DNA of 55,292 nt from Calditrichota bacterium (GTDB lineage: Bacteria; Zhuqueibacterota; Zhuqueibacteria; Thermofontimicrobiales; Thermofontimicrobiaceae): NCBI GenBank assembly GCA_013152715.1, contig JAADFU010000121.1, positions 1-55,292 on the forward strand, read 5' to 3'. The notes beneath the pieces are model-generated. The model worked only from the letters and a program-made list of their open reading frames with translations. It had not been told where the DNA came from and ran no database searches. Below, piece after piece: positions 16,901 to 48,650 of the stretch; position 1 is the first letter of the stretch; every line of letters begins with the position of its first letter. A program made the position numbers and the translations under genes.

Positions 16901-18964
16901 CTATTTCAACAACAACATTTTTCGAGATGCAATGAATTCCCCGGCTTTTAACTGACAGATATAAACTCCAGTCACCACTTCATTGCCAAGCGCATCGCGG
17001 CCTTTCCATTTCAGGCGATAACTTCCGGCAGGCTGCTGCCCGGAAAATAGCGTTTTGATTTTTTGACCCTGCAAGTTAAAAATCGTCACTTCAACAGCGG
17101 CATTTTCCGGAAGTTGGTAGGAGATTTCGGTTTCGGGATTGAAAGGGTTGGGGTAATTTTGATCCAGATGAAACGTGGTCGGTGCAACAGCATTGTTTTG
17201 CTCTGATGTAACTTCTGCATTCACCACGCGATCGTCGAGGATCAATTGCTGAAATTGTACGCCGAGATTTGCCTTGCTAACATCATTTTTCTTTTTGAAA
17301 ATTAGATTCAATTCAAGCGTTCTGCCAGATAAAGTTTTTGTGTTAGCAAAAGCAACGCTCAAATCGTCGTTTCGATTTTTTGCAGCAAAAATGACATTTT
17401 CTTCTGCTAATCCTACCGAAACAAACTCAAATCCACCGGAATTGAATTGCAAGTCTATTTTCCCGGAAATCGCATTTCCGGAAATTTCGACCGTCAGTGG
17501 TACAACTAATCGATTCTCGTCTTTCGTTTCCACTGATTGAATCGCAATCCTGGCGTTCAACGGCGCGCTGCCGGGTCGGAAAAGCTGCCAGTTTCCGGTC
17601 ACGTCGCCGTAAACGATTCCAGTGAAATCCTGATCTGCCATGTCCGAATTCAGCGGATCAAAAACAAGCGAATCGGGTGCTGAATTCCAGTTCGTCTCTG
17701 TGACAGTAAAATTGTCCGGTACAAATGCCCAATCCTTTCCTATCGAAAATTGAGTAATGATGCCCACAGAATATTGTAGCACTTGGGAGGCATCGAACGG
17801 AGAGACGGAACCATTACCTGTCACATCCGCTGCAATTAGCTGCATCGGTGTCAATGTAATCAGCCCGACTGAATACTGCAATATTTTCGCCGCATCGAAA
17901 GGACTGATGCTCTGCGCCGCATCTCCTGCTTTCGTCGGTTGCAGCACATAAGAACCAGGCAACACATTCGCGAATTCGTAGTCCCCATTATTCGCCGACA
18001 CCGTTTGCAATCCATCCAGATGAATATCGGCATTATCAATCGGTTTATTGCCGTTATAATAATGAAGACTGCCACTTACTGTAAATCCGGCGCTAACGGT
18101 AAAACTGCCGTCTTGAAGAATAGCCACCGGGTCTCCTTCGTTGAAAGTTACGCTCACCAGATCAAGAGCGCTCGTCTGTCCGGCGGTAGCTGACGGATTT
18201 ACTTCGTATTCTATGTAAATCAAAATACCCTGTCCGCTGAGCGGCGAGACGTCAAATCCCCCAATTGTAATTTCACCGTCGGAAGTGGAAAAAGCAATAT
18301 TCGACCAGGAAGAAGTCATTGTTCCGTTTATCTGAACATCCATCGGGGCGATGATATTGGTGTCCGTTTCAACTTTTACCTCAAAAGCCAGAACTCCCTT
18401 TCCCGTGAGATCATCTTCGACCATCACCGGAATAAGCAGGGTCTGCCCGGAAGCTCCGGAAGTGTCATGAATCGCAACGTGAATCCCTTCTTCCTGTCCC
18501 GCGCGAAATGTTGCCGGCGTTGTCGTGGAACCGGACAAATCATCAGTGAAACCATTAATTGTGAACTGACCTTCCCCGGAGGCGCCGGATTTCACCGTAA
18601 AACTCAACTTCACCAGCGTACCCGTGGTCCCGGAATTGATTTGCCCGCTGGTGGTAAAGCCCGCTACGCGCAAATTGCCCGCGCTGGTCTGATTCACCTG
18701 TTTGTACATCCAGGCGTCCAACAAAGTGCCGGAAAAATCTGCGCTATTGTACTGCAACAGATTGCTGGGATAGTGAAAATCAAATCCTAACGCGTCGATG
18801 GTGTTTCCGGCCCCTGAAAGGGCAATTTCAACAGTAAAAGTTTCGCCCGGAGAATGTTCATACAAAGTCTGCGACGGGCTAACATCCCATGCCGCCAGCA
18901 AACTAGGAGAGAGAAAAAACAGAAGTGGTGCCATTAAGACCAGCACCAACATTAACCGTTTCAT
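16901..18964 (-). CDS. T9SS-sorted cohesin/dockerin protein without catalytic domain (scaffold-like)
   Basis: The 687-residue secreted protein has a signal peptide (1-24), two consecutive cohesin-like domains (about 26-160 and 163-293), and a CarboxypepD_reg-like unit (about 294-345). A dockerin-like pair follows with SISPFDAAKILQYSVG and the better-formed DVTGNGSVSPFDAS calcium loop, then a third cohesin-like sandwich (about 470-585) and the T9SS sorting domain (DQNYPNPFNPETEISYQLPE ... KMLLLK). Cohesins bind dockerins in cellulosomes; here both occur in one chain. No enzyme motif is seen, so an assembly role is inferred. It has a GGAGG site before the ATG. The 19079 protein upstream is a clear paralogue, and it is probably the last gene of a transcript that begins with the subtilisin gene. 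Cohesin calls rest on pattern resemblance. Confidence 0.8.
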   Translation of the reverse strand: MKRLMLVLVLMAPLLFFLSPSLLAAWDVSPSQTLYEHSPGETFTVEIALSGAGNTIDALGFDFHYPSNLLQYNSADFSGTLLDAWMYKQVNQTSAGNLRVAGFTTSGQINSGTTGTLVKLSFTVKSGASGEGQFTINGFTDDLSGSTTTPATFRAGQEEGIHVAIHDTSGASGQTLLIPVMVEDDLTGKGVLAFEVKVETDTNIIAPMDVQINGTMTSSWSNIAFSTSDGEITIGGFDVSPLSGQGILIYIEYEVNPSATAGQTSALDLVSVTFNEGDPVAILQDGSFTVSAGFTVSGSLHYYNGNKPIDNADIHLDGLQTVSANNGDYEFANVLPGSYVLQPTKAGDAAQSISPFDAAKILQYSVGLITLTPMQLIAADVTGNGSVSPFDASQVLQYSVGIITQFSIGKDWAFVPDNFTVTETNWNSAPDSLVFDPLNSDMADQDFTGIVYGDVTGNWQLFRPGSAPLNARIAIQSVETKDENRLVVPLTVEISGNAISGKIDLQFNSGGFEFVSVGLAEENVIFAAKNRNDDLSVAFANTKTLSGRTLELNLIFKKKNDVSKANLGVQFQQLILDDRVVNAEVTSEQNNAVAPTTFHLDQNYPNPFNPETEISYQLPENAAVEVTIFNLQGQKIKTLFSGQQPAGSYRLKWKGRDALGNEVVTGVYICQLKAGEFIASRKMLLLK

Positions 18965-19078
18965 GAATTGCCTCCAATTTTAAATAATATTTTTCACTAG
19001 TACAAATTAAACGATGAAATAAGTAGCCACAATAGTATTCGTTCTCGAATCTATTAAGTGATATTTTTTCCCAAAAAT

Positions 19079-20737
19079 TCAGCGAATGAACAGCATCTTT
19101 TTCACAGCCCGAAAATCACCAGCATTTAGTTGGTAAAAATAAACGCCGCTGGCAACAGTCTGCCCTTTTTCATCAAGTCCGTCCCAAACAACATGATGCT
19201 CGCCCGTTCCCATTTTTCCGGAAATTAATGTCCGAATTCGCTGCCCCTTCGTGTTGAAAACTTGCAGCAAAACCTTCTCCTGTCCTGCCAGAAAAAATTG
19301 AATTGTCGTTTCCGGATTGAACGGATTGGGGTAATTTTGTTCGAGACGAAAAGAAGACGGAACGGGCTGCGCATTTTCGTTTGCGCCGATTAATTGAGCG
19401 CGAGACTCATTAATAATTGCAGTTGAAATTTCGATTTGAGGGTATCCTCCGGCGTGAGAACTTTTTTTCTCAAAAATTAGCATTACTTTCACGGGCTGAT
19501 TTTTGAGCGAATAAGCTGAAGCAAACGCCACATCAATATTGCCAGATTTCGCGCCCGCTTTGAATAATAGATTACCACGATTTCCGCCAATAACTGCTTC
19601 TGAAAATTTGAAATCAGTCGCAGTGTAATGCATTTCAATCTGCCCGGCAAATGTCTCATCGCTGAAATTTAAAATAAGCGGAATGCCAATTTTGCTTTCT
19701 GAAATCATTCCCGGAGATTCCAACTGATAGCGTACCTGGACGGGCGCTTGTTTTTTCAATCCTCCGCTCCAGTTCCCGGTCACGTCGCCAAGAACAATAG
19801 CCTTGAAATCCACTCCAGTTGTGTCTCGATCTAACGGCTTGAGTTCGATCGAATCCGGCGCAGAATTCCAATTTGTTTCATTTAACGAATACAAAAACGG
19901 CAAGAAAAACCAATCTCGGCCGACAGGAAACGATTCAATGAGCCCGACACTGTACTGCAAGATATAGGAAGCATCAAAAGGAGATACGGATCCATTCCCC
20001 GAAACGTCGCCGGCGATCAATTGATAGGGATTCAACTCGATGAGTCCTACCGCATATTGCAAAATTTTAGCTGCATCAAACGGAGAAATGCTTCCGCCGG
20101 TATTGTCAATTTTTGCCGGCTTGATGACATAATTTCCGGCCGGTATTTGTGAAAAAGAAAATTCCCCGCTGGAATTCGTGCTGCTGATAAAATTCGCCAG
20201 AACGGCGCTCACCCCTGGGACAGGAAAGAGATTGTTGTAATAACGAACATAGCCGGTGACAGAAAATCCGGCTGATGGAACGCGGAAAAGCGCCGAGTCT
20301 CCCACTGCGTCAACGAGATCGTCAGTGAAGCTATTGGGGAAAATATACCCTTCTCCCGAAACCGATGGTTCCACTTCAAAAACCACATTCACCAATTTGC
20401 CGGTCGTTCCGGAATTAATCTGCCCCGTCGTCGTAAATCCGGCGATTCGCAGGACGCCATCAGAAAGCAACTGCGCCTGCTTGAACATCCACGGTTCCAA
20501 AACAGTCCCTTCGAAATAAGCCCTGCGGAAATTGAGCAATGTCCCCGGATAAGTCAAATCAAATCCCATGGCATCAATGGTATTTCCGTCGCCGCCAATC
20601 GTCAGCGCCACGACAAAGCTGTCTCCTGGACTATATTCGTAAGTGTCAGCGGACGGCGCCACCTGCCAATTTCCCAATGATACCGAAAATAGCAGTAGGC
20701 AAAAACTGAAAATGAAGTAAAAAGTTTTCCTTCGCAT
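19079..20737 (-). CDS. T9SS-sorted cohesin/dockerin protein without catalytic domain, paralogue of the 16901 product
   Basis: At 552 residues this is a shorter version of its downstream neighbour: signal peptide (1-21), one N-terminal cohesin-like domain (about 24-160), a CarboxypepD_reg-like unit, a dockerin-like pair (ISPFDAAKILQYAVG and DVSGNGSVSPFDASYILQY), a second cohesin-like domain (about 335-455) and a T9SS sorting domain ending KMLFIR. The shared phrases TGQINSGTTG and ILQYSVGLI show tandem duplication with the 16901 gene, which has one extra cohesin. It has a strong AAGGAG site and starts only 31 bases after the subtilisin stop codon, so the two are cotranscribed. The role is inferred to be structural assembly at the cell surface. 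Confidence 0.8.
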   Translation of the reverse strand: MRRKTFYFIFSFCLLLFSVSLGNWQVAPSADTYEYSPGDSFVVALTIGGDGNTIDAMGFDLTYPGTLLNFRRAYFEGTVLEPWMFKQAQLLSDGVLRIAGFTTTGQINSGTTGKLVNVVFEVEPSVSGEGYIFPNSFTDDLVDAVGDSALFRVPSAGFSVTGYVRYYNNLFPVPGVSAVLANFISSTNSSGEFSFSQIPAGNYVIKPAKIDNTGGSISPFDAAKILQYAVGLIELNPYQLIAGDVSGNGSVSPFDASYILQYSVGLIESFPVGRDWFFLPFLYSLNETNWNSAPDSIELKPLDRDTTGVDFKAIVLGDVTGNWSGGLKKQAPVQVRYQLESPGMISESKIGIPLILNFSDETFAGQIEMHYTATDFKFSEAVIGGNRGNLLFKAGAKSGNIDVAFASAYSLKNQPVKVMLIFEKKSSHAGGYPQIEISTAIINESRAQLIGANENAQPVPSSFRLEQNYPNPFNPETTIQFFLAGQEKVLLQVFNTKGQRIRTLISGKMGTGEHHVVWDGLDEKGQTVASGVYFYQLNAGDFRAVKKMLFIR

Positions 20738-20768
20738 GGTGCTCTCCTTAATTTGTTAAATTAAATTT

Positions 20769-23700
20769 CTATTTGATCAACGTCATCTTACGCATTTTTT
20801 TGAAGCTTGTTGTTTCAATGCTGAAAAAATACAGACCGGATACCACATCGCGATTGCGCGCGTCTTTTCCGTCCCAGACAATTTCATACGAACCCGGCTG
20901 CTGGAGTTTGTTGACCAAAGTTTCTATGACTTGGCCATTTACATTGTAAATTTTTATCGCTACCTGTGTGGCTTCGGGAATTTCGTACGAAATCACCGTT
21001 TCCATGTTAAACGGATTTGGGTAATTTTGCCCCAGACGATACGTTCGGAGATTGTTACTTTCACTAACCTTCTCCCGCTGATTGGCCTTTTCAAAAGTAA
21101 AAGTTTCCACCTCGGCGCCGACAATATCGCCTGTCAGATTGTAGAGCCAGCAAGCGAATTTTTCCTGTTGCGGATTTCTAACGCGAAAAGTCAATTCGAC
21201 CAGATTTTCTTCTCCGCTGATTTCAGTAATCTCATCGTGAAAACCGCCGATGCGCAGCACGCCTGAAAGAATTTTATGGCTACCGAATGCCTGCCACCCT
21301 TTTGTCGCATTCCCTGAAGTCGCTGAAACGAATTCCAGTCCGTTTTCTGAAAATCCCAAATCCATGCCAAAAACTTGCAATGCCGCAGATTCATCAAGCC
21401 TGACGCCGATTTTCAATTCATCATCTTTTTCCGCGGGCAAAGAAACTAACTTTACTGTTCGAGTTGATTTATTCTTTGCCAAACTTCCTTCCGGCGGACA
21501 AGCCAGCGGAGGAGTCAAGCCGTCCAGATAGGCTGTAAAAATAACCAATGCATCTCCCGGCGTAATATCATTGTCGCAATTGGCGTCTCCGGCGAGAACG
21601 GCGCATTCGGTATTGCATTCGCCTTCCGGAGGTGTACCGCCTTGGAGATAAGTTTGAAACACACAAAGCGCATCCCCAGGCGTAATGTCGCCGTCCATGT
21701 TTGGATCGCCTAATTCGCAAGCAGGTTGACAGGTAAAAGTTCCGGAGCAATTGTTCAATCCAACGATATCGTCGGTCAGAAACGTCAAATTCAAGACGCA
21801 AGTTTCTCCTTCGCCGCATTGATTGACGAGTAATTTGACAAAAACAAGCGTCCCGCTGCTGTTGGTGTCAATTGGAACCGGATCAAATCCACCAATATTC
21901 ACGACGCCGGGTGCGTTTTCCTTTCCGTCTAAATAATCAAAATCTGTGGTTAAATTACCGGCTTGCACACCTAAATAACTCAATTTTTCGCTGCAATAAT
22001 GAAATTTAAATCCAAAGGCATCAATGGAATCCGGATTTTGCTCGATGAGAATCGGCACCAACAAAGTATCGCCCGCGACTCCTGAGACATCACCGACCTT
22101 GATGTAAGGCGGCACACATTCATGCGAAAAAGTTGCGCCGGTGATAATTATTGAAAAATTCTGAGAGCCACCTTGCAGTTGACCGGCGTGACGCACAACA
22201 ATACGATAATTCCCGCTTTCAGGACTTTCGACAAAAACCTGCTCTTCTGTATCAACGTTGTTATTGCCGGAAACCGCCGCTTGTGAGGGATTGTCAGGAG
22301 AAAGTTTCCAGGGATAATAAACCGTTCCGCTATTCAAAGCAGTTACGCGAAGATTCAAATCGTTTACCAGAACCGGAGTTCGCAAATTCAATTGCGCGGC
22401 TGGCGCGGTACCCGGTGGGTCGGTCCAGGCAATCGTTACACGCAACGGATCCACACCATCGGACTGCACAAAAATCACTGTTGAATCACCCTGATTGAGA
22501 GTCAGTTCCTGAATTGTACTCGTGTCTTGAACATCGACAGAAATGAGCTCTGCTGCTTTTTTGGTATTCAACAATCCCCATCCGTAAGAATAATCGGGTC
22601 CGGGATGACCGCCGGCTTCGTCTGCCGAATGGATCACTATCGCTTTGAGCGTCGCCGCACGCATTAAAATGCCGTCGTGTGTGTTTTGATAATGCTGTTG
22701 CAACAAAATCAGCGAACCGGCAGTATTAGGCGCTGCCATGGAAGTTCCACTGTAACGAGTATAATCTGAATCAAAATCATCGTCGCAAGAGTAGAGCGAA
22801 ATCCCGTTTGCCACAATATCAGGCTTGATTCTCCCGTCATCAGTTGGGCCCCAGGAACTAAAATCTGACATGATTACGTCTGCTGGCTGACTGTAGCCCG
22901 CAGGAATATCCCGTACTGCGCCGATAGTCATAATATTTTTTGCCGTGGCACCGCCGCCGGGCAGACAATCAAATCCCTCCGCTCCGCCGTCAGGCTGCCG
23001 CGTCACCGTGCTCAAAACCCACCCGTTATTGTTGTCGTAAACCCAGTGTTCTTCGCCCGGCACGGGTCCCTCATCATTGCGGTCATTTCCCGCGGATTTA
23101 ATAATCAAATAGTAAGGCGCATTGTAAGCTATTTCGTCCCATGTTTGAGATTGGTCGCTATAAAAACCGAAATTGTAATCCTCGGTCTCGCTTATTGAAG
23201 GGTCTCCAAACCATGCCCAGCGATTATCTCCCCGATAGCCGTAAATCCAACCTGTGATGTAACTATAAGAATGGTTAGAAACTAATAATCCGTTTGCAGC
23301 GGCATTGGCCATTTCGGAGTCGTCGTCGTTCCACTCATACGCATGCAAATTAGCCTGTCCAGCCATGCCTTTTGCGTCAGAATCCACGCCGCTGGCGATC
23401 ATAGTTCCGGCGACGTGTGTGGAATGTGACGAAGTTGAGGACGAATAATCCATTTGCGTCACCCGGCCTCCAAATTCCTGATGTGAAAGCAAAACGCCCC
23501 CGCCGTCCCACTCTCCGAGATAAAGCCCATTCCCGGTAAGAGACAAACCGGCAGAGCCGCCCGGCCAGACGTCATCCGTGGATACTGTTTTTGCGGCATC
23601 CAAATTATCAGTGACGTAATATCGCGGACGTCCATTCAGGAGATTTTGAATTTCAATGATTTCTCCGTTGTCAAATTCAGAACGTACAGGGTAACCTTTG

Positions 23701-23876
23701 GACTGCGCCCAATTCACCGCGGCGTGTTTTTTTTGAGAGAATTCTTGCTGGTATTTCTGTTTTAAGTTGAGTAATTGCGCCCTGTTGGTTTGCGGATGTT
23801 GCGGACTTTGCGCCCCGCCGACAAAAACAGCGAGGGCAACAATTATCAGCAATGCAAATAGCAACTTTATAGACAT
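20769..23876 (-). CDS. Subtilisin-like (S8) serine protease with cohesin-dockerin-cohesin tail and T9SS sorting domain
   Basis: The 1035-residue secreted peptidase has a signal peptide (1-22) and propeptide, then an S8 domain (about 100-440) with a complete triad: Asp124 in LGEWDGGG, His151 in HSTHVAGT and Ser379 in SGTSMAAP, plus oxyanion Asn264 in KSAGND. A beta-sandwich of the pre-peptidase type follows (to about 600). Then come a cohesin-like domain, a Cys-containing dockerin (GDPNMDGDITPGDALCVF and GDANCDNDITPGDAL), a second cohesin-like domain and the T9SS sorting domain (QNYPNPFNMETVISYEIPE ... KMTLIK). The ATG at 23876 has an AAGGAGGGG site; the upstream TTG is rejected. It is the first gene of the likely transcript continuing into the two scaffold-like genes. 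Protease identity is firm. Confidence 0.92.
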   Translation of the reverse strand: MSIKLLFALLIIVALAVFVGGAQSPQHPQTNRAQLLNLKQKYQQEFSQKKHAAVNWAQSKGYPVRSEFDNGEIIEIQNLLNGRPRYYVTDNLDAAKTVSTDDVWPGGSAGLSLTGNGLYLGEWDGGGVLLSHQEFGGRVTQMDYSSSTSSHSTHVAGTMIASGVDSDAKGMAGQANLHAYEWNDDDSEMANAAANGLLVSNHSYSYITGWIYGYRGDNRWAWFGDPSISETEDYNFGFYSDQSQTWDEIAYNAPYYLIIKSAGNDRNDEGPVPGEEHWVYDNNNGWVLSTVTRQPDGGAEGFDCLPGGGATAKNIMTIGAVRDIPAGYSQPADVIMSDFSSWGPTDDGRIKPDIVANGISLYSCDDDFDSDYTRYSGTSMAAPNTAGSLILLQQHYQNTHDGILMRAATLKAIVIHSADEAGGHPGPDYSYGWGLLNTKKAAELISVDVQDTSTIQELTLNQGDSTVIFVQSDGVDPLRVTIAWTDPPGTAPAAQLNLRTPVLVNDLNLRVTALNSGTVYYPWKLSPDNPSQAAVSGNNNVDTEEQVFVESPESGNYRIVVRHAGQLQGGSQNFSIIITGATFSHECVPPYIKVGDVSGVAGDTLLVPILIEQNPDSIDAFGFKFHYCSEKLSYLGVQAGNLTTDFDYLDGKENAPGVVNIGGFDPVPIDTNSSGTLVFVKLLVNQCGEGETCVLNLTFLTDDIVGLNNCSGTFTCQPACELGDPNMDGDITPGDALCVFQTYLQGGTPPEGECNTECAVLAGDANCDNDITPGDALVIFTAYLDGLTPPLACPPEGSLAKNKSTRTVKLVSLPAEKDDELKIGVRLDESAALQVFGMDLGFSENGLEFVSATSGNATKGWQAFGSHKILSGVLRIGGFHDEITEISGEENLVELTFRVRNPQQEKFACWLYNLTGDIVGAEVETFTFEKANQREKVSESNNLRTYRLGQNYPNPFNMETVISYEIPEATQVAIKIYNVNGQVIETLVNKLQQPGSYEIVWDGKDARNRDVVSGLYFFSIETTSFKKMRKMTLIK

Positions 23877-23954
23877 GACTACCCCTCCTTGCAAGAAATT
23901 TTATGTAATTAAATTACAACATGCTGCGTTAAGGTTTTGCTAAATTTACAAAAG

Positions 23955-23988
23955 CACTGACAGCCGAACAGAATCAACTGTCAGCGAG
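23955..23988 (-). terminator. Short hairpin after the M14 carboxypeptidase gene
   Basis: CTGACAG (23957-23963) pairs with CTGTCAG (23978-23984); on the minus strand the stem extends by a G-U and a C-G pair and is followed by TTTT. It lies about 45 bases past the stop and probably separates this unit from the subtilisin gene. Confidence 0.5.
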
Positions 23989-24028
23989 TAGTCGTTTCAG
24001 ATAAAAAAAATGTTTTTCCAAAATACTT

Positions 24029-26956
24029 TTATTTCATCAACAAAATTTTCCTTGATAGTCTAAAATGATTTACGAACATTTTAATCAAATAAACGCCGGA
24101 ACTGAGAACATGTCCGGCATCGTTCTTCCCGTCCCAGACGAGTTCATGCACGCCGACAGTTTGATCCGCGGAAACAAGAGTTCGCACTTTTTGGCCCATA
24201 GTATTAAAAATGGAAATCTCAACACGCCCGGGCGCGGCTAATTGATAATTAATGCGAGTCTCCATATTGAACGGATTGGGGTAATTTTGCTCGAGAAAGT
24301 AACCATCGATTTTTTGCGCCTCTTCGGGAGCATTGATGGAAGTCGGCGTCAGATCAAAATGAAGCGGCGCGGATTCAGCTTTCTCTACATCATCCTTAAA
24401 ATTCATCGCCCAGATTTCGCCGCCGCCGTAAGCCTGATCCCGCGGCTGAAACTGTAATTTAGCCAAAAGATGTTTGTCGTGACCGCTGACGTTATCCCCG
24501 GTGAATCCGCCCAATCGAATTACCCCCGCAAAAGGTTCGGCCGCGTCAAATTCTTGCCAGGTCTCCGTAACTTCGCCTGCTTGCGCTGCGACAAATTTCA
24601 ACAAATGGTCGGGAAAACCAATGTCAATTCCAAAAGCGTCCATTTGCACAGCGCTGTCCACAAAAACGCCAAAAGTCATCGTCAATGAATCCGACGATGC
24701 AATTTTCTCAAACCAGATATTTCTTTTGACGGTATTGGAATCTCCGGAAAATCCATTTGTTGGCAGACAATCAAGCGGTGGATTTTTCCCGTTAAGATAG
24801 GCGCGAAAAATATAAAGCGCATCCCCGGGGGTAACTCCGTTAGGAGAACAGTTAATATCCGCGGCGAATTCCGCGCAGGGATTTGAGCAAGAAGAATCCG
24901 CGGGAAATGAACCCGACAGATATCGAAAAAACGCGCAAAACGCATCGCCGGGAGTGATGTCACCATCCATGTTGACGTCTCCCAACTGACAATCTGACGG
25001 AGCGCCGGTCACTACAATATCTTCCAATTGGCTCCAACCGCCCCATTGGTCGTCCGCGTCCTTGGCACGAACGCGGTAGTAATATGTCCCGGGAAGTTTG
25101 CCGGAAATAGAAAAACTGGCAGTCGTCAAATTATCCGATAACGTCGTGTCGTTGCTAAAAAATGGCACCGGATAAATATCGTCAAAATAAATACCCTCTC
25201 CGGTAACGTAGGCGTCCGTCACATAATGCAGCCGAACAATAATACTTTGTCCGGCGAATCCGCTCAAATCGAAAACCGCTTGCGCCCAGCCATTGGAATC
25301 GCCGGTAATGCCGTTGCCCATGTTATTTCCGTTGGGATTTGTCGTCGTAGTAATATTTCCGGGAATACTCTGATAATTGGCGCCGCCATCAGAGGAGACT
25401 TCGACGTAGGCATAGTCCCAATCTTTCTCAATGTCGTACCAGGCGTTAAATGTCAACGCCATGCCGGCGCTCACAATCAGCGGGAATTTGAGTGTCGCCG
25501 TATGGTTCAAATTGTCGCCCATTTGCGAGTACAAACTCTTGGGCGCGCTGTTTGCCCGTACAGAGCTAATTTCAAAACCGTGCATGTTCCAGCGCGCGTC
25601 GGCGTCATCACCCAAATCCGTCACCAGCGTATCTCCGCTCAATTCATCTAATTGATAAGCGACGGCGGGATTCACCGGATCGTCCTGAATTGTCCAACTC
25701 ACGGTGTAATTTCCGTCATCGTCGCTGCCTAATTCGTTTATCGCGGGCACAGCCGGCGGATTAATGCGGTACGGATTTTCAGCAATGAGGCCGGCGATCC
25801 TGGCGACATAAAGATTCGGGCCAAGATTTTCCTGCACGATCTGCGGAAGATCACTCTCCGGCGGCCAAAAATCAGCGCCAATTTCCGGCGTAAAACCAAA
25901 AATCATGTTCTTCTCCGTCTGCTCACCATAAAAATAGTCGTCCGAATCTCCATTAGTTCCATAAATAACTCCCATAGCGAAATTTCCGGGCAGATACCCA
26001 TTGTACGCCACGCAATTGCGCGCAATTTGCATGAAGACATCGTGATGCGGCGTATTTTGCGGGACGTATCCCCACGGGAAAAGCCACATTTTGCCGTAGC
26101 TGTGGTACATGAGCGAAATCACAAAATGATGCGACATGCACAATTGTCGCAAAGCCTGAGTCTCCGGCTCGGAAAAAGCGCTCGTCCCGCGGTAAATATT
26201 GGACGACGGATCCGGACTGGAGCCGCTGTTGTCGTAGCCCCATTTGTAGCCAAAATTCCGATTCAAATCAACGCCGTAGCTACCGTCACCGTTGTTGCGG
26301 CGATTTTTGCGCCACATGGGATCAGTGGTTTCCACGTAAACATGGCCATCCGGATTGGTTGTCGGAATCAGCCACAGTTCCCGGTTGTCCACCAAAAAAG
26401 TGACTTCCGCATCGGTCCCGTAATTCGTCACCAGATAATTCAAAAAATAAAGAATCACTTCCGGCGTTGCTACCTCCCGGGCGTGGATGTTGGCGACGTA
26501 AAGCACATCCGGCTCATCCGCTTCTTCCTGAGTCGGATTGTCAGAGACTTTGACCGCCCAAATATCGCGCCCTTCGATGCTCTGACCGATGCTGGTTATC
26601 GTCGTAATATTGGGATAAGCCGCGTGTACTTGATTGATTTCAGCGACCATTTCCTGATAGGTGTGATAGTCGCCCATGTCGCCGTCCAGCCCCACATTTT
26701 CCTGATAAGTTTTCCGTAAATTTTTATCCAAAATTTCAAACTCAAAACCGCGCTCGCGAAGAAATTGCATGTCTTCATTTGTCGCCACAATATCAGCAAA
26801 ACGCTTGAAATTGCGCGTGGCAAAATCGAGATCGTACGAATGCAGTAATTTGGCATCTTCCACACTGAAGAGTTTCACTCGAATCAATTGCTTCTCTTGA
26901 CCAAAACTGACGGAAATGAATCCCGCCAATAGCGCACACAACAGAAATCGTTTCAT
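24029..26956 (-). CDS. M14 zinc carboxypeptidase with dockerin-cohesin tail and T9SS sorting domain
   Basis: The 975-residue secreted protein begins with a signal peptide (1-19) and a propeptide, then an M14 domain (about 95-400). Zinc ligands are His158 and Glu161 in NIHAREVATPE and His285 in MYHSYG; substrate Arg233 lies in VDLNRNFG and catalytic Glu358 in GFTPEIGAD, so it should be active on C-terminal residues. Next is a jelly-roll region like that of immune inhibitor A (about 420-610), then a Cys-containing dockerin (GDVNMDGDITPGDAF and AADINCSPNGVTPGDAL), one cohesin-like domain and the T9SS sorting domain ending KILLMK. Unlike its neighbours it lacks the cohesin before the dockerin. 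GGAGAAAG precedes the ATG. It probably forms its own transcription unit. Confidence 0.92.
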   Translation of the reverse strand: MKRFLLCALLAGFISVSFGQEKQLIRVKLFSVEDAKLLHSYDLDFATRNFKRFADIVATNEDMQFLRERGFEFEILDKNLRKTYQENVGLDGDMGDYHTYQEMVAEINQVHAAYPNITTITSIGQSIEGRDIWAVKVSDNPTQEEADEPDVLYVANIHAREVATPEVILYFLNYLVTNYGTDAEVTFLVDNRELWLIPTTNPDGHVYVETTDPMWRKNRRNNGDGSYGVDLNRNFGYKWGYDNSGSSPDPSSNIYRGTSAFSEPETQALRQLCMSHHFVISLMYHSYGKMWLFPWGYVPQNTPHHDVFMQIARNCVAYNGYLPGNFAMGVIYGTNGDSDDYFYGEQTEKNMIFGFTPEIGADFWPPESDLPQIVQENLGPNLYVARIAGLIAENPYRINPPAVPAINELGSDDDGNYTVSWTIQDDPVNPAVAYQLDELSGDTLVTDLGDDADARWNMHGFEISSVRANSAPKSLYSQMGDNLNHTATLKFPLIVSAGMALTFNAWYDIEKDWDYAYVEVSSDGGANYQSIPGNITTTTNPNGNNMGNGITGDSNGWAQAVFDLSGFAGQSIIVRLHYVTDAYVTGEGIYFDDIYPVPFFSNDTTLSDNLTTASFSISGKLPGTYYYRVRAKDADDQWGGWSQLEDIVVTGAPSDCQLGDVNMDGDITPGDAFCAFFRYLSGSFPADSSCSNPCAEFAADINCSPNGVTPGDALYIFRAYLNGKNPPLDCLPTNGFSGDSNTVKRNIWFEKIASSDSLTMTFGVFVDSAVQMDAFGIDIGFPDHLLKFVAAQAGEVTETWQEFDAAEPFAGVIRLGGFTGDNVSGHDKHLLAKLQFQPRDQAYGGGEIWAMNFKDDVEKAESAPLHFDLTPTSINAPEEAQKIDGYFLEQNYPNPFNMETRINYQLAAPGRVEISIFNTMGQKVRTLVSADQTVGVHELVWDGKNDAGHVLSSGVYLIKMFVNHFRLSRKILLMK

Positions 26957-27043
26957 GTTACTTTCTCCGGTAAATTTACTTTCTCACTGTAATTTATTAG
27001 ATGCTTCACTTTAGAGGTATTGAATAATTTTTTTGACAATTCA

Positions 27044-27106
27044 GCCACCGAGTCACGGAACGCGCAGACAGAAAAAACTCATTGTTGTTTGTGTTCTCTG
27101 CTGGTG
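27044..27106. repeat. Degenerate dispersed hairpin repeat
   Basis: The segment reads CCACCGAGTCACGG ... GTTCTCTGCTGGTG with an AT-rich middle. It resembles the purine-rich 'cacagag/ctctgtg' inverted repeats at 43517-43662, though the arms are worn and pairing is partial. Confidence 0.4.
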
Positions 27107-27224
27107 CTTATTAAAATGTTAGCAAATTCAAAATTGATTTTTCGCTAAAACAATATCGGTTCACTGCACCACTGTTGTAATTTATTTTGACTGAACAATT
27201 CTGATTAGTCAGATTTGGTTCAAG

Positions 27225-27281
27225 CATCCCCCTTGGGGAATTCCAAGAAGTCCCCCTTATGAAGGGGGATTTAGGGGGATG
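27225..27281. repeat. CATCCCCC/GGGGGATG inverted repeat
   Basis: CATCCCCC (27225-27232) and GGGGGATG (27274-27281) flank a second pair, TCCCCC and GGGGGA around TTATGAA. An outer pair GTCAGATT (27208-27215) and AATCTGAC (27320-27327) brackets it. The layout is that of a dispersed palindromic repeat inserted in an intergenic region. Confidence 0.65.
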
Positions 27282-27453
27282 TCAAGCAGTTTGAAAAACA
27301 AAATATTGTTAAAAAAACTAATCTGACCAAGTAGTGATAATTGCCTATTTTCTAATGTAAGCCCAATTAATTGAAAAAACAACAACTTTTTGCAAATTCT
27401 ATTTTTGAGTCATTGTTTCATGGACATTAGAAAATTCTGATTTACCAATCAAT

Positions 27454-27505
27454 AAAAAGAGGCCTTACTGATATTGGTAATTATTTTGTAATCAAGTAAG
27501 ACCTC
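27454..27505 (-). terminator. Terminator after the 27521 gene
   Basis: Read on the minus strand, GAGGTCTTACT pairs with AGTAAGGCCTC, with one U-G wobble, followed by TTTTTATT. It lies 16 bases past the stop codon. Confidence 0.75.
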
Positions 27506-27520
27506 AACTAACGCTATCAA

Positions 27521-30500
27521 TTATTTAACAAGAATTAATTTGTTCATCGCTGAAAACCTGGGAGTTTTCAGTCGGTAAAGATAAACGCCCGAGCTCACTA
27601 CATTGCCGGCTTCGTCTTTTCCATCCCACTGCACAGAAAATCGTCCCGCCGGATGTCGCTGTGAAATAAGAGTACGAATTTTTTGTCCGGTAGTATTGAA
27701 CAACTCGAGAGTAACCTGCGTCGGTTCCGGCAATTCGTAAACAATTTCCGTGTTAAGATTGAACGGATTGGGATAATTTTGATGCAACTGGTATTCATCG
27801 GGAATCTCGCCGTTGGCGATCACCTTAATTCCGGAGTGCAGCGTGGCAAAGTTAAATTTTTCCGCTTCTGCATTAACTAAATCGTCGGACAGATTGTAAA
27901 TCCACAATTCGCCGCTGCCTTCCGCTCCGGGGCGCGCTTTAAATTTTAGATAAGCAATTGCGTTCTTCCCTTCGATACTTTGCGCCTGGTCCTGAAATCC
28001 CCCAAGGTAAATCACGCCGGCAACGCTTTCTTTCCCTTCAATTGCTTGCCAGGCTTCAGTGACGGGACCCGGTGTCGCTTCACGAAATTGCAATAAATTA
28101 TCCGGGTAACCAATCGCCATGCCGAACGCCTGAATTTTGTCGCAATTCTCCAGATGCAAAGCAAAAGTTATTTCACCATTTTCGTTTCCCTCAATGCGCT
28201 CAAATCTCAGCCGCGCACGGTCAGTCGCCTGATTGGAAGCGACCTGAAAATTGGGATCGCACGGCAGCGGCAACTCTGCTCCGTTCAAGTAGCCGAGAAA
28301 AATGTAAAGGGCGTCTCCGGGCGTCACGCCGTTGGGAGAACAATTCGTGTCGGCCGCCTTGAGCGCGCACGGGTTGTCGCATTCGCTGGGCGGAACGCCG
28401 TCGCTGAGAAAAATATTAAAAGCGCACAGCGCGTCTCCCGGCGTGAGGTCTCCGTCCCAGTTCACGTCGCCTAACTGGCAATTCGGCTCACATTTAAAAA
28501 TACCGTTACAGATATTCAATCCGACAAAATCATCGACGAGATCGCTCAGTTGCAGCACGCTTCGCTCGCCTTCGTTGCAAGGCGAAGGATTGACATCGAG
28601 GACAATTTTTGCCACAGAACCAGAGCTATTCGCCGGAATCGCCACATTATCAAATCCGCCCACTGTAATTAATCCGCCGGAATTTTCGTAGGACTGAAAA
28701 TAGGAAAAATTTTGCGTGAGCGATCCCTTTTCCAAACGATTGAAGGATAATTTTGTTGAATCAAAAGAAAATTGGAAACCGAACGCATCCACCGGCTGAG
28801 GATTTTGTTCAAGATAAATCGCCACAGAAATTTCTCCCTCAAGAGCAGAAACGTCCGCTGCTTTCAAATACGGCGGCTGACATTGGCCGCGAACCTCGAG
28901 AGAAACGGGAATTTGGACGAGAGGTTCATCAGGGTCATTGCTGGAAATAACAAGTCGGGCCTGATAATTTCCCGCGTTCAAATCGGCGGCATTCACTTTA
29001 ACGCGAACGTCTTCGCTTTGTTGCGCGGGCACAGATCCTGATAATGGCGAAATATCCAGCCATTGAACACCTTTGCTAATTTTCACTGCTAATAAATCGT
29101 GGACATAACTCGCATTAAAAACTACTTCCAAACCGTCGCTGCCATTGCTATTCTCAATGCCAATTGTAGCACTTGTTACATTTCCTGTCAAATGCAAATA
29201 CTGAAACTTAATGTCTCCTGATTGAAATAAAATAATCTGAAAAGTATAGCTTCCTGATCCACTGAATTTTTGAACATTCGAGTACTGGACAATGAAGCGC
29301 TCTGCGTCCGATTGATAATAAATGGCCCCATTCCCATGATTTGGATAGAGATCATCCCAAAAAGGGCAAATGATATCATTCGGCTCAAAACTATCTGGTA
29401 TGGGGTCATTGCTAAAATCTGTGCCGTCTGAGCCAAAAGTAAGGTAGCCGTTGGAAGAGATTTTCAGGCTTGTCTTATTTTCGCCGTAAAATGAAAATGT
29501 GAAGGGCAAAGTCACTGAGTAGAAATCATCATCGGATAAATATATCTCTGTGCCTGTACCAGAAATGTCAATCCAATTAAATGTCGGGCCTCCCGGTTCA
29601 TCGCTGTCAATCCAGGTGTAACCGAAATTATCCGGGCCGCCTTTGCTTTCGACAATCGGTTCTCCGTTTCGGGGATCCGGGTCTCCTTTCCCCAGTTCCA
29701 AATGCGGCAAATTTCTTTTGTGTGAAATCCCCGCGCCCTTTAATTTATTGTTTTTGGATTTATCAGTTTGATTTTTTGCCCTGCCTATTTGGGGAGTGAT
29801 TGTGGAAATTGACCAATTCAGATTTGCATTATTGGCAGGCGCGACATTGGCAATAGTCAAAATCGAGCTGTCGGATTCTCCGACATCAAGCAGAAATGAA
29901 AATGAAGATGGATTTACGTCGATATCAGGGGGACTCTGCGGGGGGGCGAGAAACCAATCTAGGGCGGCATCGGCAATGCTGTGAACATTGGCTTCTGTCC
30001 AGTGATAGCCATCGGTCACCGTATAGGTCGGAAGCGCGCCTGTATCGAGACAGAGCTGATCGAAACCGAGAAAGACTGTTTTGCTTCCGCTATTCTCAGT
30101 GTGAATTCCCATAGCTCTGCTCTGAGCCGAATCGGTGAAGCAAACAACCGCATTGTTGTTCGGCGTAATAGCATCAGACCAGTTGGTCCAGCCCAATTCA
30201 AAACTTGTGTTGATGTACAGAGCCAAACTGTCGCCAAGAAAAGTATGCAACGGCCCGGAAATAAGGTCATTCTGAACCGGGTTAATTCTGAATGGATCAG
30301 TTGCAATGTCATGGCCAGTCCCGCCGGCATATTGAATACCTAAAAATTGGTTGTGCCAATCATCGTCGGCAAAAGTTGTATCATCGAAGGCGCCCCAGCC
30401 ACCGATCAATAGTCCTGCCCATTCCTGCGATGACCAAAAAAGATTTTTGGCTCCGCTGGCCATCCAATTCCCGACGACATCGTCGTTCATCGTCGCCGGC

Positions 30501-31804: not shown

Positions 31805-31911
31805 AAGCTCCACCCCTTAATTTTGCCCATGAGAATTTTTGGTCTCTTTGATTGCAAGCCGATTACTGATGTCAACACTGAAAACAAGTCATGCGTCAAG
31901 CTTTTAAATAA

Positions 31912-31945
31912 AGGACAGCCCCCTATTTTCAAAGGAGGCTATCCT
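31912..31945 (-). terminator. Terminator after the C1 protease gene
   Basis: On the minus strand AGGATAGCCTCC pairs with GGGGGCTGTCCT through 12 positions, two of them U-G wobbles, followed by TTTATTT. It lies 8 bases past the stop codon. Confidence 0.75.
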
Positions 31946-31952
31946 ATTCAAA

Positions 31953-34900
31953 TTACTTGACGAGTATCAGCTTTTTGGCATCAAAAAATTTCGCCGTCTG
32001 AAGTTTGTAAACGTAAATCCCTGAAGGCAAATCGTTGCCTACGGCGTCTTTTCCGTCCCAATGCGCCACATAACGGCCAGCGTCTTGCTTTTGTGATACA
32101 AGAGTTCTCACTTTCTGACCCATGGCGTTATAAACTGTCAGCGTCGCCTGAATTGCCTCAGGCAACTCGTACTCGATATCAGTTTCCATGTTGAACGGAT
32201 TGGGATAATTTTGGCTGAGTGAGAATTTCTGCGGGACGCCATTTGCGTCAACTCGGTGCACGTCCGTTGTCGTCAATGGCACATGAATTGTTTCCGCAGC
32301 CAAACTCGCATCTTTCAAATCATCCGTCAGATCATAAAGCCACAATTCGGCAGCGTCCGCTTCTTTCAGCACGCGGAAAGTTAATTCTGCTAACACAGCG
32401 GGATTTTTTCGCTGAACCGCTTCACTGTGGAAACCGCCAACCGTGACAACGCCGGAAATGCTCTCTTTCCCGCCAAAAGACTCCCACAACTGCGTCAATG
32501 GGGAACTGTTAACTGCGACCAGTTGCAAAATATCATCCGAGAATCCGACATTGAGACCAAACGCCTGTAATCCCTGCACTTGACTAAGTCTCACCGCCAG
32601 TTTGATCTCGCCCGGTTGATCCGCAGAAAGCTGAATCAGGCTGATTTCTCTGGGCTGCGAAGTCTCTTTTTGCAAGGCAAAAGAAGGATCACAATCGAGA
32701 GGCGCGCTATCACCGTTCAAATAGCCCTGGAAAATATACAGCGCGTCGCCTGGCGTGATTCCGTTTGGCGTACAATTGATGTCGGCGGCATAAAGCGCAC
32801 ACTCATTATTGCAATCGCCTGACGGCAAATTTCCGCCATTCAAATAAATCTGAAATGCGCACAAGGCATCTCCCGGGCTGATTGTGCCGTCGTTATTCAC
32901 ATCGCCCAGCAAACAGGACTGACAGGTAAACGTGCCGTCGCAAGGATTCATCCCGGACAAATCATCAGTCAAATTCTGAATACCGAGAGTGACGGACTCG
33001 CCCTCTGAACACTGATTCACATGTAGCGTGACTCGGGCAATGGTTCCGGAACTGTTTGCAGGAATGGGGGTCGTGTCGAATCCGCCGATCGTTACCGTGC
33101 CCGTCGGACTTTCCTGCCCGTTAAAGAAATCGAATCCGCTGGTCAAATTGCCTTTCTCCACAGATACAAAAGAAAGCTTACTGGCATTAAATGTAAATTT
33201 AAAACCGAAAGCATCGATTGCGCTGGGATTTTGTGCAATTGTCACATCAACCACCACATTGCTGCCCTGCGCGCCGCTGGCATCTTCCGCCTTAACGTAC
33301 GGTGGATTACAAGGCCCGCCGCCGCCGTAATTAAAGGTGACGTTCACCGTTTTCGGGCTGCCTCCGGCGCCGGATGCAGTGACGGTTATGGCGCCGGTGT
33401 AAGTCTGACCTGGGGTCAAACCAGAGGAATTTACGGAAACGGTAACATTATCCGTCTCCGACGTCGTGCTTCCGCTGGTCGGATTGCAACTCATCCAACT
33501 CTTATTGTCCGAGACCGTCCAGCTAAATGATCCGCCGCCGCCATTGCTAATAGCAAAAGTCTGCGAAGGTGGGTTGGATCCTTGATTCGAGCTGAAAGTC
33601 ATACTTGTCGGGTTGACAACCAGAATCGGATTATTATTACATTGCGGATGCGCAGTCACTGCTACCTGTACAGTTGCATGTTGCGGATCATTGGAATGAA
33701 TGGAGATTGTCCCGGTTTCGGTCGGACAATTTACCGCGCTCCAGTTTGTAATTGTCACGGTCACTGTCTGGCTCGCGCCAGGGCTGAGTGTAGGAATTGT
33801 TGTCGGCGAAAAGGTCAGCCATGATTTGTTGTCCGTAATCGAGCTGACAATCAAATTGGCGGTTCCTGTATTCTGAATGACAAAAGTATTCCCGCTATTT
33901 CCGCCTTCCTGATAGACGCCAGACGCTGTGCAGGCGTACATGCCAAAATGGACGTCGTCTGTCACATCATCATAGGCGATGCGGAAATATCCGTTTTCAC
34001 CCCAGCTTGGGCCCCAACTATTTTTCGCCTTAAAATATTGTCCGTTGTCATTATATCCGACTATTAGCACCGCATGCCCATTGTCCCATGACAAAGATCC
34101 GCCATTGTAATTGTAAACTCCCCCGCTGTAACTATCAAATGTGCCATCGTCAGGAACGAGCATGGCGACTGCTAATGGTCCGTTTTGTAGTTGCGCCTTG
34201 ATATCGCTCACATTTGCCGGTTCGCCCCAGAGACCTTGCGCTGGCGTATAATTAGTAACCTTAACGAGGTAATCGGGACTATTGCACTTGTCGTTACAAT
34301 TACCGTTAGTGCCGCCGTATGGATGACAAGGTTCCGGTGAAACACCCTGATTGTGAATGTATTCCAGAGCATCCCAATACCAGCCTCCATTACAATCACC
34401 TGGCGCACAGGAGACAAGTTCTTGTTCGGACAAATCGTCCCAGATGCCCAAATTTTCGACCAGAGCAATCGCTGCGAACGCCCAGCACGAGCCGCATTGA
34501 AGCTGATTTTTTATCGGGCTATCATTTGCGCTCCAATCCACGGAAGAAAGTAATTGGTTGGGGTCATAATCAAAATTTGGACTGTGACTTTTCCAATAAT
34601 TCTTTACCGGATCCGGAATTTTCAATCCGCGCGGATATCTTCCGTCCGGCGGAATATAATCATCTGGGGGAGCGTTCTCATTATCAGGAGCACGACGGAG
34701 AGTTTGGTAGATGTCCAGCGATGTGGGAACCACGCTGATAGTGGGCTCCTGTTGCTGCTGTTGGATGATCATAAAATCATCTCTGCTCTTCCAGGTACCT
34801 TCGAGATGTACTCTTGCAATCCACTGGCCTGGATCATTCGCGGGATCATGGCCGGCAATATAGATACCAACCCAGTGAGAATAATTTGAATTACCTTGTG

Positions 34901-36629
34901 GCAAATTGAAATCAAGCCCCGCATAAAAATCATCGTTGGTATCATAAAAGCTGATATTTGCGGTCCAATCACGGGTACAAGAGTTAGTATTCCATTTCGT
35001 GTACAGCGTTGCGAGATTATCCGTCGTATAAAAAGTATCAGCCCGTGTATTATAAGGGTCATCGCCATCACTACACATGAAATGGGCATTTAGCTGCGGC
35101 TCTCCGCCTTGTTGCTGAATAGTGAAATTATCATGAGCGACCTGGCTGCCGTCAACAAATATGCGCGCTTTCCATTGACCTGGGTCATTTGCCGGATCAT
35201 GACCCGAAATATAGATTCCTGCCCACCAGGTCCATGAGGAATTTCCAGCCGGGATATTTGTCGATCCGCCCCAATAATAAGAGTCGCTCGTATCGTAAAA
35301 TTTTACATCTAAAGAATGAGTTGAAGTACAGGAGCTTGAATTCCATTTGGTGAACTCCACGACCATATTGTCAGTCACATCAAAAACCGAAGTTTGTGTA
35401 TTATAGGGATCGTTTCCATCCCGGCAGGTAAAATGGTCTGTCAATGTCGGCGTTTCTGAACCAACGTTCTTTTTAATATAAACATCGTCCAGGTAAGCGC
35501 CGTCATCAATAATCGAGGCGTCGCTGGTAAACACAAAAGCGATCCAGACCTGGCTTTGTCCGGTTAAATCGCCAATTTGGTAAACATTCGTCAAATCGAA
35601 TGTCTGACTCAGCCAGCCATTAACATTACCTGCGTCATCGGTCATGTTGCCAGTGAGGTAGTAGCCGTAAAAATTCGTGCCGTTAGTGGACGCCACATAG
35701 TGGAATTTATCGAAATTGGTTTCTGTTTTTGTCCAATGCCAAAAATTCACTTTAGCGTCAGTCGCATCGGCAAGACTAAAAGGACCGTAAACCATCCAAG
35801 CCTGCATATTGTTTACGTACTGACCGCCATAACCCGTGCCCTCTGAACCCAAATCGGCGCAAAATCCGCTCCAACTCCCGCCATGATGTTTATAGCTCGT
35901 ATCGTCCCAATAGGCGTCGGCATATCCATTTGCGGCGTACACATTCCAACTATTGGGAAATGAGCCTTCAAAAGTTTCCGATTTGATGGTCTGCCATCCG
36001 GTTGGCGCTTGTGGCGGATTTTCCGGAATCAATTCTTTTTTGTTGGGATCATTTGCCGGGATGACTTTTTTGAATTTAGTCGGATCAAATATGAGTGATA
36101 CAGGTCCCTTAAGTGGTTTGTGCGAACCTTTGGGAACTGTCTCACCGGGCCGCAGTTGATATTTCTTTTCGTGTTGTCGAATTGCCTGTTTGAGCTTTGC
36201 AGATTGATTTTCGCCTGATGATGCACCCAGTTCGTCGCTAATCACTTTCTTAATTGTAGGAGCTTCCTGGTATTTGGACTTTATTTTCCCTTCGCTGTTT
36301 CCGGATCCAGCGAACCAGATGGGGATATTGCCATCTGGCAAACTTTGGCCTTTGGCATAGAAAAAACCCATGTGTTTGCCATAATTCGTCACTTCGACGC
36401 GCCAATTCATTTCGCCGGACTTCAGGTCTTTGAATTGACTCGGCTCTCCGATGAGCGCTCCTTGCAGAAATTTCATTTTCGTCTGGTTCGTTTGAATGAA
36501 CTTATGAACCATTGTGACGACTTGACTTTTGGTAACCACTTCCTGTGCCGACAATAATCCCGGCAATATCATGCATCCAATTGCAATCATCAGAAAAATG
36601 GCTACCGCCTTCCTTTTTGATGCTTCCAT
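31953..36629 (-). CDS. Papain-family (C1) cysteine protease with cohesin-dockerin-cohesin tail and T9SS sorting domain
   Basis: The 1558-residue protein is the largest in the array. After a signal peptide come a jelly-roll domain (about 225-400), two tandem 115-residue repeats (HFTCRDGNDPYNT and HFMCSDGDDPYNT, each with SGHDPANDPGQW or AGHDPANDPGQW), and a papain domain. Catalytic residues are complete: Gln709, Cys715 in QCGSCWAF, His852 in DNGHAVLIVGY and Asn870 in KNSWGPSWGENGYF. Two Ig/BACON domains follow, then cohesin-like, Cys-containing dockerin (GDVNNDGTISPGDALCAF and AADINCTPNGITPGDAL), cohesin-like and T9SS domain ending KLILVK. The ATG at 36629 has a GAGGA site; the TTG nine codons upstream is rejected. 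The peptidase domain appears to be inserted within an Ig domain. It is the first gene of the array in the direction of transcription. Confidence 0.92.
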   Translation of the reverse strand: MEASKRKAVAIFLMIAIGCMILPGLLSAQEVVTKSQVVTMVHKFIQTNQTKMKFLQGALIGEPSQFKDLKSGEMNWRVEVTNYGKHMGFFYAKGQSLPDGNIPIWFAGSGNSEGKIKSKYQEAPTIKKVISDELGASSGENQSAKLKQAIRQHEKKYQLRPGETVPKGSHKPLKGPVSLIFDPTKFKKVIPANDPNKKELIPENPPQAPTGWQTIKSETFEGSFPNSWNVYAANGYADAYWDDTSYKHHGGSWSGFCADLGSEGTGYGGQYVNNMQAWMVYGPFSLADATDAKVNFWHWTKTETNFDKFHYVASTNGTNFYGYYLTGNMTDDAGNVNGWLSQTFDLTNVYQIGDLTGQSQVWIAFVFTSDASIIDDGAYLDDVYIKKNVGSETPTLTDHFTCRDGNDPYNTQTSVFDVTDNMVVEFTKWNSSSCTSTHSLDVKFYDTSDSYYWGGSTNIPAGNSSWTWWAGIYISGHDPANDPGQWKARIFVDGSQVAHDNFTIQQQGGEPQLNAHFMCSDGDDPYNTRADTFYTTDNLATLYTKWNTNSCTRDWTANISFYDTNDDFYAGLDFNLPQGNSNYSHWVGIYIAGHDPANDPGQWIARVHLEGTWKSRDDFMIIQQQQQEPTISVVPTSLDIYQTLRRAPDNENAPPDDYIPPDGRYPRGLKIPDPVKNYWKSHSPNFDYDPNQLLSSVDWSANDSPIKNQLQCGSCWAFAAIALVENLGIWDDLSEQELVSCAPGDCNGGWYWDALEYIHNQGVSPEPCHPYGGTNGNCNDKCNSPDYLVKVTNYTPAQGLWGEPANVSDIKAQLQNGPLAVAMLVPDDGTFDSYSGGVYNYNGGSLSWDNGHAVLIVGYNDNGQYFKAKNSWGPSWGENGYFRIAYDDVTDDVHFGMYACTASGVYQEGGNSGNTFVIQNTGTANLIVSSITDNKSWLTFSPTTIPTLSPGASQTVTVTITNWSAVNCPTETGTISIHSNDPQHATVQVAVTAHPQCNNNPILVVNPTSMTFSSNQGSNPPSQTFAISNGGGGSFSWTVSDNKSWMSCNPTSGSTTSETDNVTVSVNSSGLTPGQTYTGAITVTASGAGGSPKTVNVTFNYGGGGPCNPPYVKAEDASGAQGSNVVVDVTIAQNPSAIDAFGFKFTFNASKLSFVSVEKGNLTSGFDFFNGQESPTGTVTIGGFDTTPIPANSSGTIARVTLHVNQCSEGESVTLGIQNLTDDLSGMNPCDGTFTCQSCLLGDVNNDGTISPGDALCAFQIYLNGGNLPSGDCNNECALYAADINCTPNGITPGDALYIFQGYLNGDSAPLDCDPSFALQKETSQPREISLIQLSADQPGEIKLAVRLSQVQGLQAFGLNVGFSDDILQLVAVNSSPLTQLWESFGGKESISGVVTVGGFHSEAVQRKNPAVLAELTFRVLKEADAAELWLYDLTDDLKDASLAAETIHVPLTTTDVHRVDANGVPQKFSLSQNYPNPFNMETDIEYELPEAIQATLTVYNAMGQKVRTLVSQKQDAGRYVAHWDGKDAVGNDLPSGIYVYKLQTAKFFDAKKLILVK

Positions 36630-38587: not shown

Positions 38588-38588
38588 G

Positions 38589-48637: not shown

Positions 48638-48650
48638 TTAAGTAAAAAAA

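Follow-up and report, generated by a model that had tools for sequence, protein, structure and literature searches.

The window analyzed here is a stretch of 55,292 nucleotides, contig C121 in a genome of the candidate phylum KSB1 (4.15 Mb, 98% complete; G000 below). Between positions 16901 and 36629 it holds six consecutive open reading frames (ORFs), all on the minus strand, as are all array features located below; in order of transcription they are named C1, P5, M14, S8, P2 and P1. A preliminary description of this DNA had proposed six neighboring genes for T9SS-sorted proteins with cohesin and dockerin modules, and this is confirmed by the ORFs, by matches to TIGR04183, by sequence profiles and by predicted folds: each of the six proteins carries a dockerin, at least one cohesin and a T9SS type A tail. 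Iterated profiles give the same layout for C1, P5 and S8, namely cargo, cohesin, dockerin, cohesin and T9SS tail; M14 follows the order cargo, dockerin, cohesin, tail; P2 consists of a cohesin, a dockerin and the tail, and P1 of two cohesins, a dockerin and the tail. By our own estimate, based on a rough gene count, the probability that six such genes are adjacent by chance is about 1e-10; the similarity among them has an obvious reason in tandem duplication of the tail.

Three of the genes encode peptidases. The C1 gene (31953-36629) encodes a papain-family peptidase of 1558 amino acids, counted from ATG, whose other modules are Ig/BACON-type domains, a first cohesin, a dockerin, a second cohesin and the T9SS tail; its peptidase domain (33969-34547; PF00112, E 1e-43) has Cys715, His852 and Asn870 as catalytic residues, again counted from ATG. 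The M14 gene (24029-26956) combines a carboxypeptidase T-like domain (25823-26647; PF00246, E 7e-80; His158, Glu161, His285 and Glu358) with a MAM domain, a dockerin, one cohesin and the tail. The S8 gene (20769-23876) encodes a KP-43-like subtilase (peptidase domain 22575-23537; PF00082, E 2e-29; Asp124, His151 and Ser379 from ATG) followed by cohesin 1, dockerin, cohesin 2 and tail. Three intact catalytic sets had been reported for these proteins, and every residue agrees when numbering begins at the first ATG; the listed ORFs start upstream of it at TTG, by 6 codons in S8 and by 9 codons in C1. Among solved relatives, the C1 domain is nearest in sequence to papain and cathepsin L-like endopeptidases and the M14 domain to carboxypeptidase T. 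The S8 domain is nearest to the alkaline protease KP-43 (PDB 1wmd) and to SubHal.

No enzyme domain was detected in the three remaining proteins. P5 (27521-31804; 1427 amino acids from ATG) bears a nidogen-like domain, cohesin 1, dockerin, cohesin 2 and the T9SS tail; its amino-terminal part has no match in the PDB, Pfam gives the nidogen-like domain only, and no peptidase domain was found there. P2 (19079-20737) is made of a cohesin, a dockerin, a weak carboxy-terminal cohesin-like region and the tail, and P1 (16901-18964) of two cohesins belonging to different clades, a dockerin and the tail; in both, the dockerin sits within a CarboxypepD_reg-like domain. The preliminary description had also stated that no carbohydrate-active domain is present. 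This holds for the six array genes, in which Pfam reveals neither a carbohydrate-active enzyme nor a carbohydrate-binding module, but it does not extend to the whole family of proteins sharing the tail, which includes a relative with CBM9 and a G000 protein with GH114.

The cohesin assignment rests on both sequence profiles and predicted fold. Pfam Cohesin (PF00963) matches above its cut-off in P1, S8, P5 and C1. The first cohesins of the last three lie at 21723-22106 (S8; E 1e-8), 28484-28870 (P5; E 6e-9) and 32919-33299 (C1; E 9e-12, also found by profile and by Foldseek). The second cohesins, at 21078-21458 (S8), 27830-28213 (P5) and 32265-32648 (C1, where profile and model agree), fall below the Pfam cut-off (E 0.001-0.01 for the two tested) and were recovered by profiles built from the window or from KSB1. 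One of these profiles, A1, was made from the four cassettes of the window, and the other, A2, from 18 KSB1 cassettes. M14 has a single, carboxy-terminal cohesin (24341-24721), identified by profile and by AlphaFold with Foldseek. P1 has two clear cohesins, a (18512-18862; PF00963 E 3e-17 for the whole protein) and b (18140-18466; profile and tree), and P2 has one (20291-20644; profile and tree); the carboxy-terminal region of both proteins aligns with a weak cohesin (E 3e-4) of the P2 orthologue in a genome of the same genus (locus L096 of G058). Profile A2 matches the solved cohesins of Archaeoglobus, C. acetobutylicum CohA2 and C. perfringens NagJ, and almost nothing beyond cohesins and dockerins. 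The AlphaFold model of the C1 cassette, comprising cohesin 1, dockerin and cohesin 2 (pLDDT 89, pTM 0.71), finds cohesins as its best Foldseek matches, with the ScaA type II cohesin dyad leading; the M14 dockerin-cohesin model likewise finds cohesins first, with TM 0.6-0.73 to solved structures. The sandwich modules are thus true cohesins, as had been proposed, and an unrelated Ig family can be ruled out, since profiles and fold both give cohesin first.

A tree of 51 cohesins of G000 places the cassette cohesins, P1 cohesin a and the P2 cohesin in one clade (support 97/99), apart from all others. P1 cohesin b belongs to the clade of other cohesin proteins, where it groups with cohesins from two proteins of similar architecture (loci L038 and L044); the wider group around it takes in several cohesins of an eight-cohesin protein encoded on another contig, C163. 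These positions suggest that P1 and P2 may bridge two specificity classes.

The small modules had been described as dockerins, and profile matches to solved dockerins, together with their repeats, support this. Those of C1 (32691-32915; profile, model and motif), P5 (28259-28480; profile and motif), M14 (24767-24991; profile, motif and model) and S8 (21498-21719; profile and motif) each contain six cysteines, and both repeats present [ST]PGDA..F at the recognition positions ([ST]PGDAL..F in its fuller form, seen twice in C1). The two repeats thus share one motif, the pattern that a dockerin with a pair of equivalent faces would show. The dockerins of P2 (19922-20113; profile and motif) and P1 (17747-17929; PF00404 E 1e-3, and motif) are distinct: they carry SPFDA..IL in its place, with a degenerate first calcium loop. 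Pfam PF00404 gives sub-threshold scores for the cysteine-rich dockerins of S8, M14, P5 and C1 (E 1e-4 to 0.2); the P1 dockerin reaches the cut-off when the genome is searched and stays below it in the protein search, while a homologous KSB1 dockerin, at locus L101, lies above it. Among the dockerin matches of profile A2, the ScaH dockerin 8ajy comes first (E 4e-6) and Doc8 is also found. Two calcium-loop/helix repeats are present, as judged from the sequence repeats and from two main helices in the models, and several of the second calcium loops have a one-residue insertion. Coincidental EF-hand repeats are an unlikely explanation, as solved dockerins top the profile searches.

In all six proteins the terminal T9SS type A tail scores above the curated cut-off of TIGR04183; in the cassette proteins it occupies 31956-32207 (C1; E 2e-10), 27524-27775 (P5), 24032-24283 (M14) and 20772-21023 (S8). 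Export of the six proteins by T9SS is credible because G000 encodes 140 such tails and a full PorU sortase (866 bits). That the six genes form one operon is unlikely: terminator-like hairpins of 13 pairs, each identified by consensus match only, are predicted after C1 (31912-31945, read from 31945 to 31912) and after M14 (23955-23986, read from 23986 to 23955), and promoter-like sites number 39, compared to 30 +/- 5.5 in shuffled sequences, so that a single operon is unsupported. On the other strand, adjoining the array, positions 37370-40148 hold a gene for an HpcH/HpaI-type lyase, whose ORF also matches an acyl carrier domain of the malonate-decarboxylase/citrate-lyase type, and a gene for a citrate lyase alpha subunit. 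Three more large T9SS proteins, with sortilin-like/BNR, beta-propeller and FG-GAP repeats, are encoded at 44890-55290; none has a Pfam match to cohesin or dockerin.

The combination of dockerin, cohesin and T9SS tail is not confined to the array. Cohesin matches in G000 number 31, spread over about 20 contigs, and the same three modules occur there, in this order, behind a GDSL lipase, a C25 gingipain-like peptidase, another S8 peptidase, a GH114+C1 protein and a Sde182-like protein; tails of this type are also carried by CotH, FG-GAP and beta-helix proteins. Each of the 82 KSB1 genomes searched has matches to P2, many of which span the T9SS tail alone, and nearly all of the examined loci that match the middle of P2 show the dockerin-cohesin-T9SS order. 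Given these matches and the varied cargo, the tail is common throughout the phylum and has no special tie to peptidases. The cysteine-rich cassette with the PG-type motif is narrower: it is found in six G000 proteins, four of them in the array, and in 14 of the 82 genomes. Several other proteins with cohesins and dockerins deserve mention in their own right. A second S8 peptidase of G000 (L039:3-3560, contig C179) has a cohesin-dockerin-cohesin-T9SS arrangement with a different dockerin class, and the gene directly after it (L039:3667-4479) encodes a single-cohesin T9SS protein of 271 amino acids, a logic similar to that seen in the window. The CotH kinase-like proteins of L106:1-2895 (G023) and L110:7656-10853 (G027) also pair a dockerin with a cohesin; the tail is seen in the latter, and the former runs off its contig. 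CotH proteins are known from cellulosomes too (PMC12484212). Finally, at three loci of related KSB1 genomes (L105:1792-4203, L108:6350-8842 and L109:8431-10863) a T9SS protein has its dockerin between a run of three cohesins and a fourth one, an arrangement that is scaffoldin-like, on a small scale.

The grouping of the peptidases, in turn, is conserved in two other KSB1 genomes, in one of them in part. In G058 the order C1, M14, S8, P2 is kept, and P5 is missing. In G065, which belongs to another family of the same order, cassette-bearing S8 and M14 genes precede the gene of a cassette protein that has no known enzyme domain (L097) and, past one ORF that has neither cohesin nor dockerin, that of a two-cohesin protein like P1. 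Other adjacencies recur: at L105 an S8 gene with a dockerin adjoins a four-cohesin protein, and at L101, L106 and L111 a cassette gene adjoins a single-cohesin T9SS gene. Among about 30 KSB1 loci with M14 homologues, some of them truncated, a clear cohesin and dockerin were seen only in the copies of G000, G058 and G065; most of the others have the T9SS tail with no cohesin or dockerin. The docking modules are therefore an optional addition, present on several peptidases of one locus, and so appear to have been gained (or kept) on these in the three lineages.

These features lead us to propose that the six T9SS-exported proteins would form a cell-surface set in which cohesin-dockerin contacts link three peptidases with complementary roles: S8 and C1, as endopeptidases, would cleave within the protein chain, and the M14 carboxypeptidase would trim its ends. 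Each enzyme would offer a dockerin whose two repeats present the same [ST]PGDAL..F recognition face, flanked by cohesins in C1, S8 and also P5, and followed by a single cohesin in M14. P1 and P2, having no enzyme domain, could act as adaptors: the first cohesin of each is of the peptidase type, whereas their own SPFDA..IL dockerin belongs to the other class, which is common to other surface proteins. We infer that the modules bind between chains, and that the purpose would be the breakdown of protein for nutrition. The identity of the modules, the export tails, the catalytic residues, the shared cohesin clade and the conserved grouping all speak for a functional set; that the three peptidases are actually joined in trans into a surface complex we regard as a serious possibility, at slightly under an even chance. 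Several observations count against a complex. The predicted model packs the M14 dockerin on the cohesin of its own chain; the tail is found phylum-wide, mostly on non-peptidase proteins; each enzyme would need no partner for anchoring, having its own T9SS tail; and the grouping is patchy, with the cassette profile matched in 14 of 82 genomes and terminator-like hairpins splitting the array. Of the surface 'peptidosome' originally suggested, then, the cohesins, the dockerins and the T9SS clients stand, and the grouping recurs in two further genomes, but a dedicated device is at odds with the presence of the same tail on many unrelated KSB1 proteins and with the cis packing predicted by AlphaFold.

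That packing is the starting point of the most direct challenge to trans assembly. The dockerin may bind the following cohesin in the same chain, which would yield a folded, calcium-stabilized, carboxy-terminal block before the T9SS tail; the modules would then stabilize or space individual proteins or aid their export, and would build no multi-enzyme complex. The M14 dockerin and cohesin are modeled together with pLDDT 91 and pTM 0.88, compared to about 0.55 expected by our simple estimate for independent modules, although a single-chain AlphaFold model cannot tell a contact in cis from one in trans: it may show a true closure of the chain, or AlphaFold may have picked up a matching pair that works between chains. 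Given the close paralogy of the four dockerins and of the cassette cohesins, modules that match in cis would in fact probably match in trans as well. The order dockerin-cohesin-T9SS prevails in most G000 dockerin proteins and across KSB1, as closure in cis would have it. In ten G000 proteins, moreover, dockerin distances correlate best with those of the following cohesin (Mantel r 0.90), less with those of the cohesin before it (0.72) and least with those of the tail (0.37), but across KSB1 the following and preceding cohesins differ little (0.86 versus 0.81), and co-inheritance of neighboring modules would explain such a correlation with no binding at all. Nor does pure closure explain why stand-alone cohesin-T9SS genes, lacking a dockerin, adjoin cassette genes. 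We consider closure in cis possible, if on the whole doubtful. Somewhat unlikely in our view, yet worth stating, is a scaffoldin-free and self-complementary system that would combine the two: every peptidase would have its dockerin beside a matching cohesin, so a chain might fold back on itself while it is exported and exchange partners once outside, giving a peptidase network on the surface, and the tail would be a phylum-wide KSB1 device for surface assembly.

There are two further readings. The tail could be a general-purpose KSB1 surface module copied onto secreted proteins, the peptidases acting separately and being neighbors through tandem duplication and tail shuffling. Its occurrence on GDSL lipase, C25 gingipain, GH114+C1, Sde182-like, CotH, FG-GAP and beta-helix proteins, and the P2-like matches in 82 of 82 genomes (many to the T9SS tail alone), are what such a module would produce; against it, the cysteine-rich cassette is limited to six G000 proteins, four of which are in the array, and the peptidase set stays together in a genome of the same genus and partly in another family, so that we judge this reading improbable. 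A two-tier complex, in which P1 and P2 would plug the peptidases into a true scaffoldin, is one to which we give very little credence. No multi-cohesin scaffoldin lies within the array, and the candidate is the protein encoded elsewhere in G000, on contig C163 (L035:3926-10660): it has 2245 amino acids and eight cohesin-like modules that alternate with Fn3-type domains, some of these modules lie near P1 cohesin b in the tree, and relatives are present in 12 of 82 genomes, counting G000, most being colinear with it along almost all of its length and the rest along part. However, tree support around its cohesins is mixed, and no protein of this type was found in G058 or G065 (73% and 85% complete), which both bear the array; it is therefore not required wherever the array occurs.

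The idea of a peptidase complex built on cohesin and dockerin is not new, having been proposed for two other groups (PMC6461901, PMC8542988), in both cases, as described there, from sequence. The 'planctosome' of freshwater Planctomycetes (Andrei et al. 2019, PMC6461901) is there a hypothetical model of a cohesin-dockerin complex for peptide breakdown. Like the array, it includes an endopeptidase (M12B), a carboxypeptidase of family M14 and an adaptor that has the two module types; its peptidases would dock on the cohesin of the adaptor, and a lamin-tail protein would be the anchor, whereas in the array the enzymes themselves bear cohesins and T9SS tails, and S8 and C1 take the place of the M12B endopeptidase. 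Parts of the planctosome type, namely S8, C1 and M14 with dockerins and P1 and P2 with both modules, are present in the array. The cellulosome-like complex of Ca. Stygibacter (Cloacimonadota) contains dockerin-bearing S8 and C25 peptidases, and its surface attachment, as for the array, was inferred from a conserved T9SS-type carboxy-terminal domain; it also has a scaffoldin of 3,755 amino acids with carbohydrate-binding modules, and includes glycoside hydrolases (PMC8542988). In contrast, no scaffoldin lies beside the enzymes of the array, which carry cohesins themselves.

Clostridial cellulosomes also include peptidases, such as a double-dockerin S8 of C. thermocellum and an X-dockerin cysteine peptidase of R. 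flavefaciens (PMC12484212). The modules are homologous to those of the array, and these peptidases too are thought to attach to a surface cohesin (PMC12484212); the array differs in having no carbohydrate-active enzyme or carbohydrate-binding module in its six genes, and enzymes with an export and anchoring tail of their own. Archaeal and ANME proteins offer another case of non-cellulolytic use, with both module types in one protein, but their cargo is different, they are archaeal, and a T9SS tail is not described for them (PMC9012536). We found no paper in the open-licence literature on dockerins or cohesins in KSB1, Calditrichaeota or Zhuqueibacterota. What is new here is that each enzyme combines a dockerin, one or more cohesins and a T9SS tail, and that no scaffoldin accompanies the enzymes in the array.

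Cohesins and dockerins are widespread beyond cellulose degraders, and their roles there are mostly unknown. The array presents them in compact form: three peptidases share one class of dockerin, two further proteins are likely adaptors, and assembly in trans, closure in cis and the absence of assembly lead in it to differing and directly measurable predictions. If closure in cis is true, the array would illustrate a use of the module pair for which we found no description in the literature searched. If assembly is true, it would be a source of cysteine-rich cohesin-dockerin pairs and would represent an equivalent of the cellulosome for peptidases, displayed by T9SS in an uncultured phylum.
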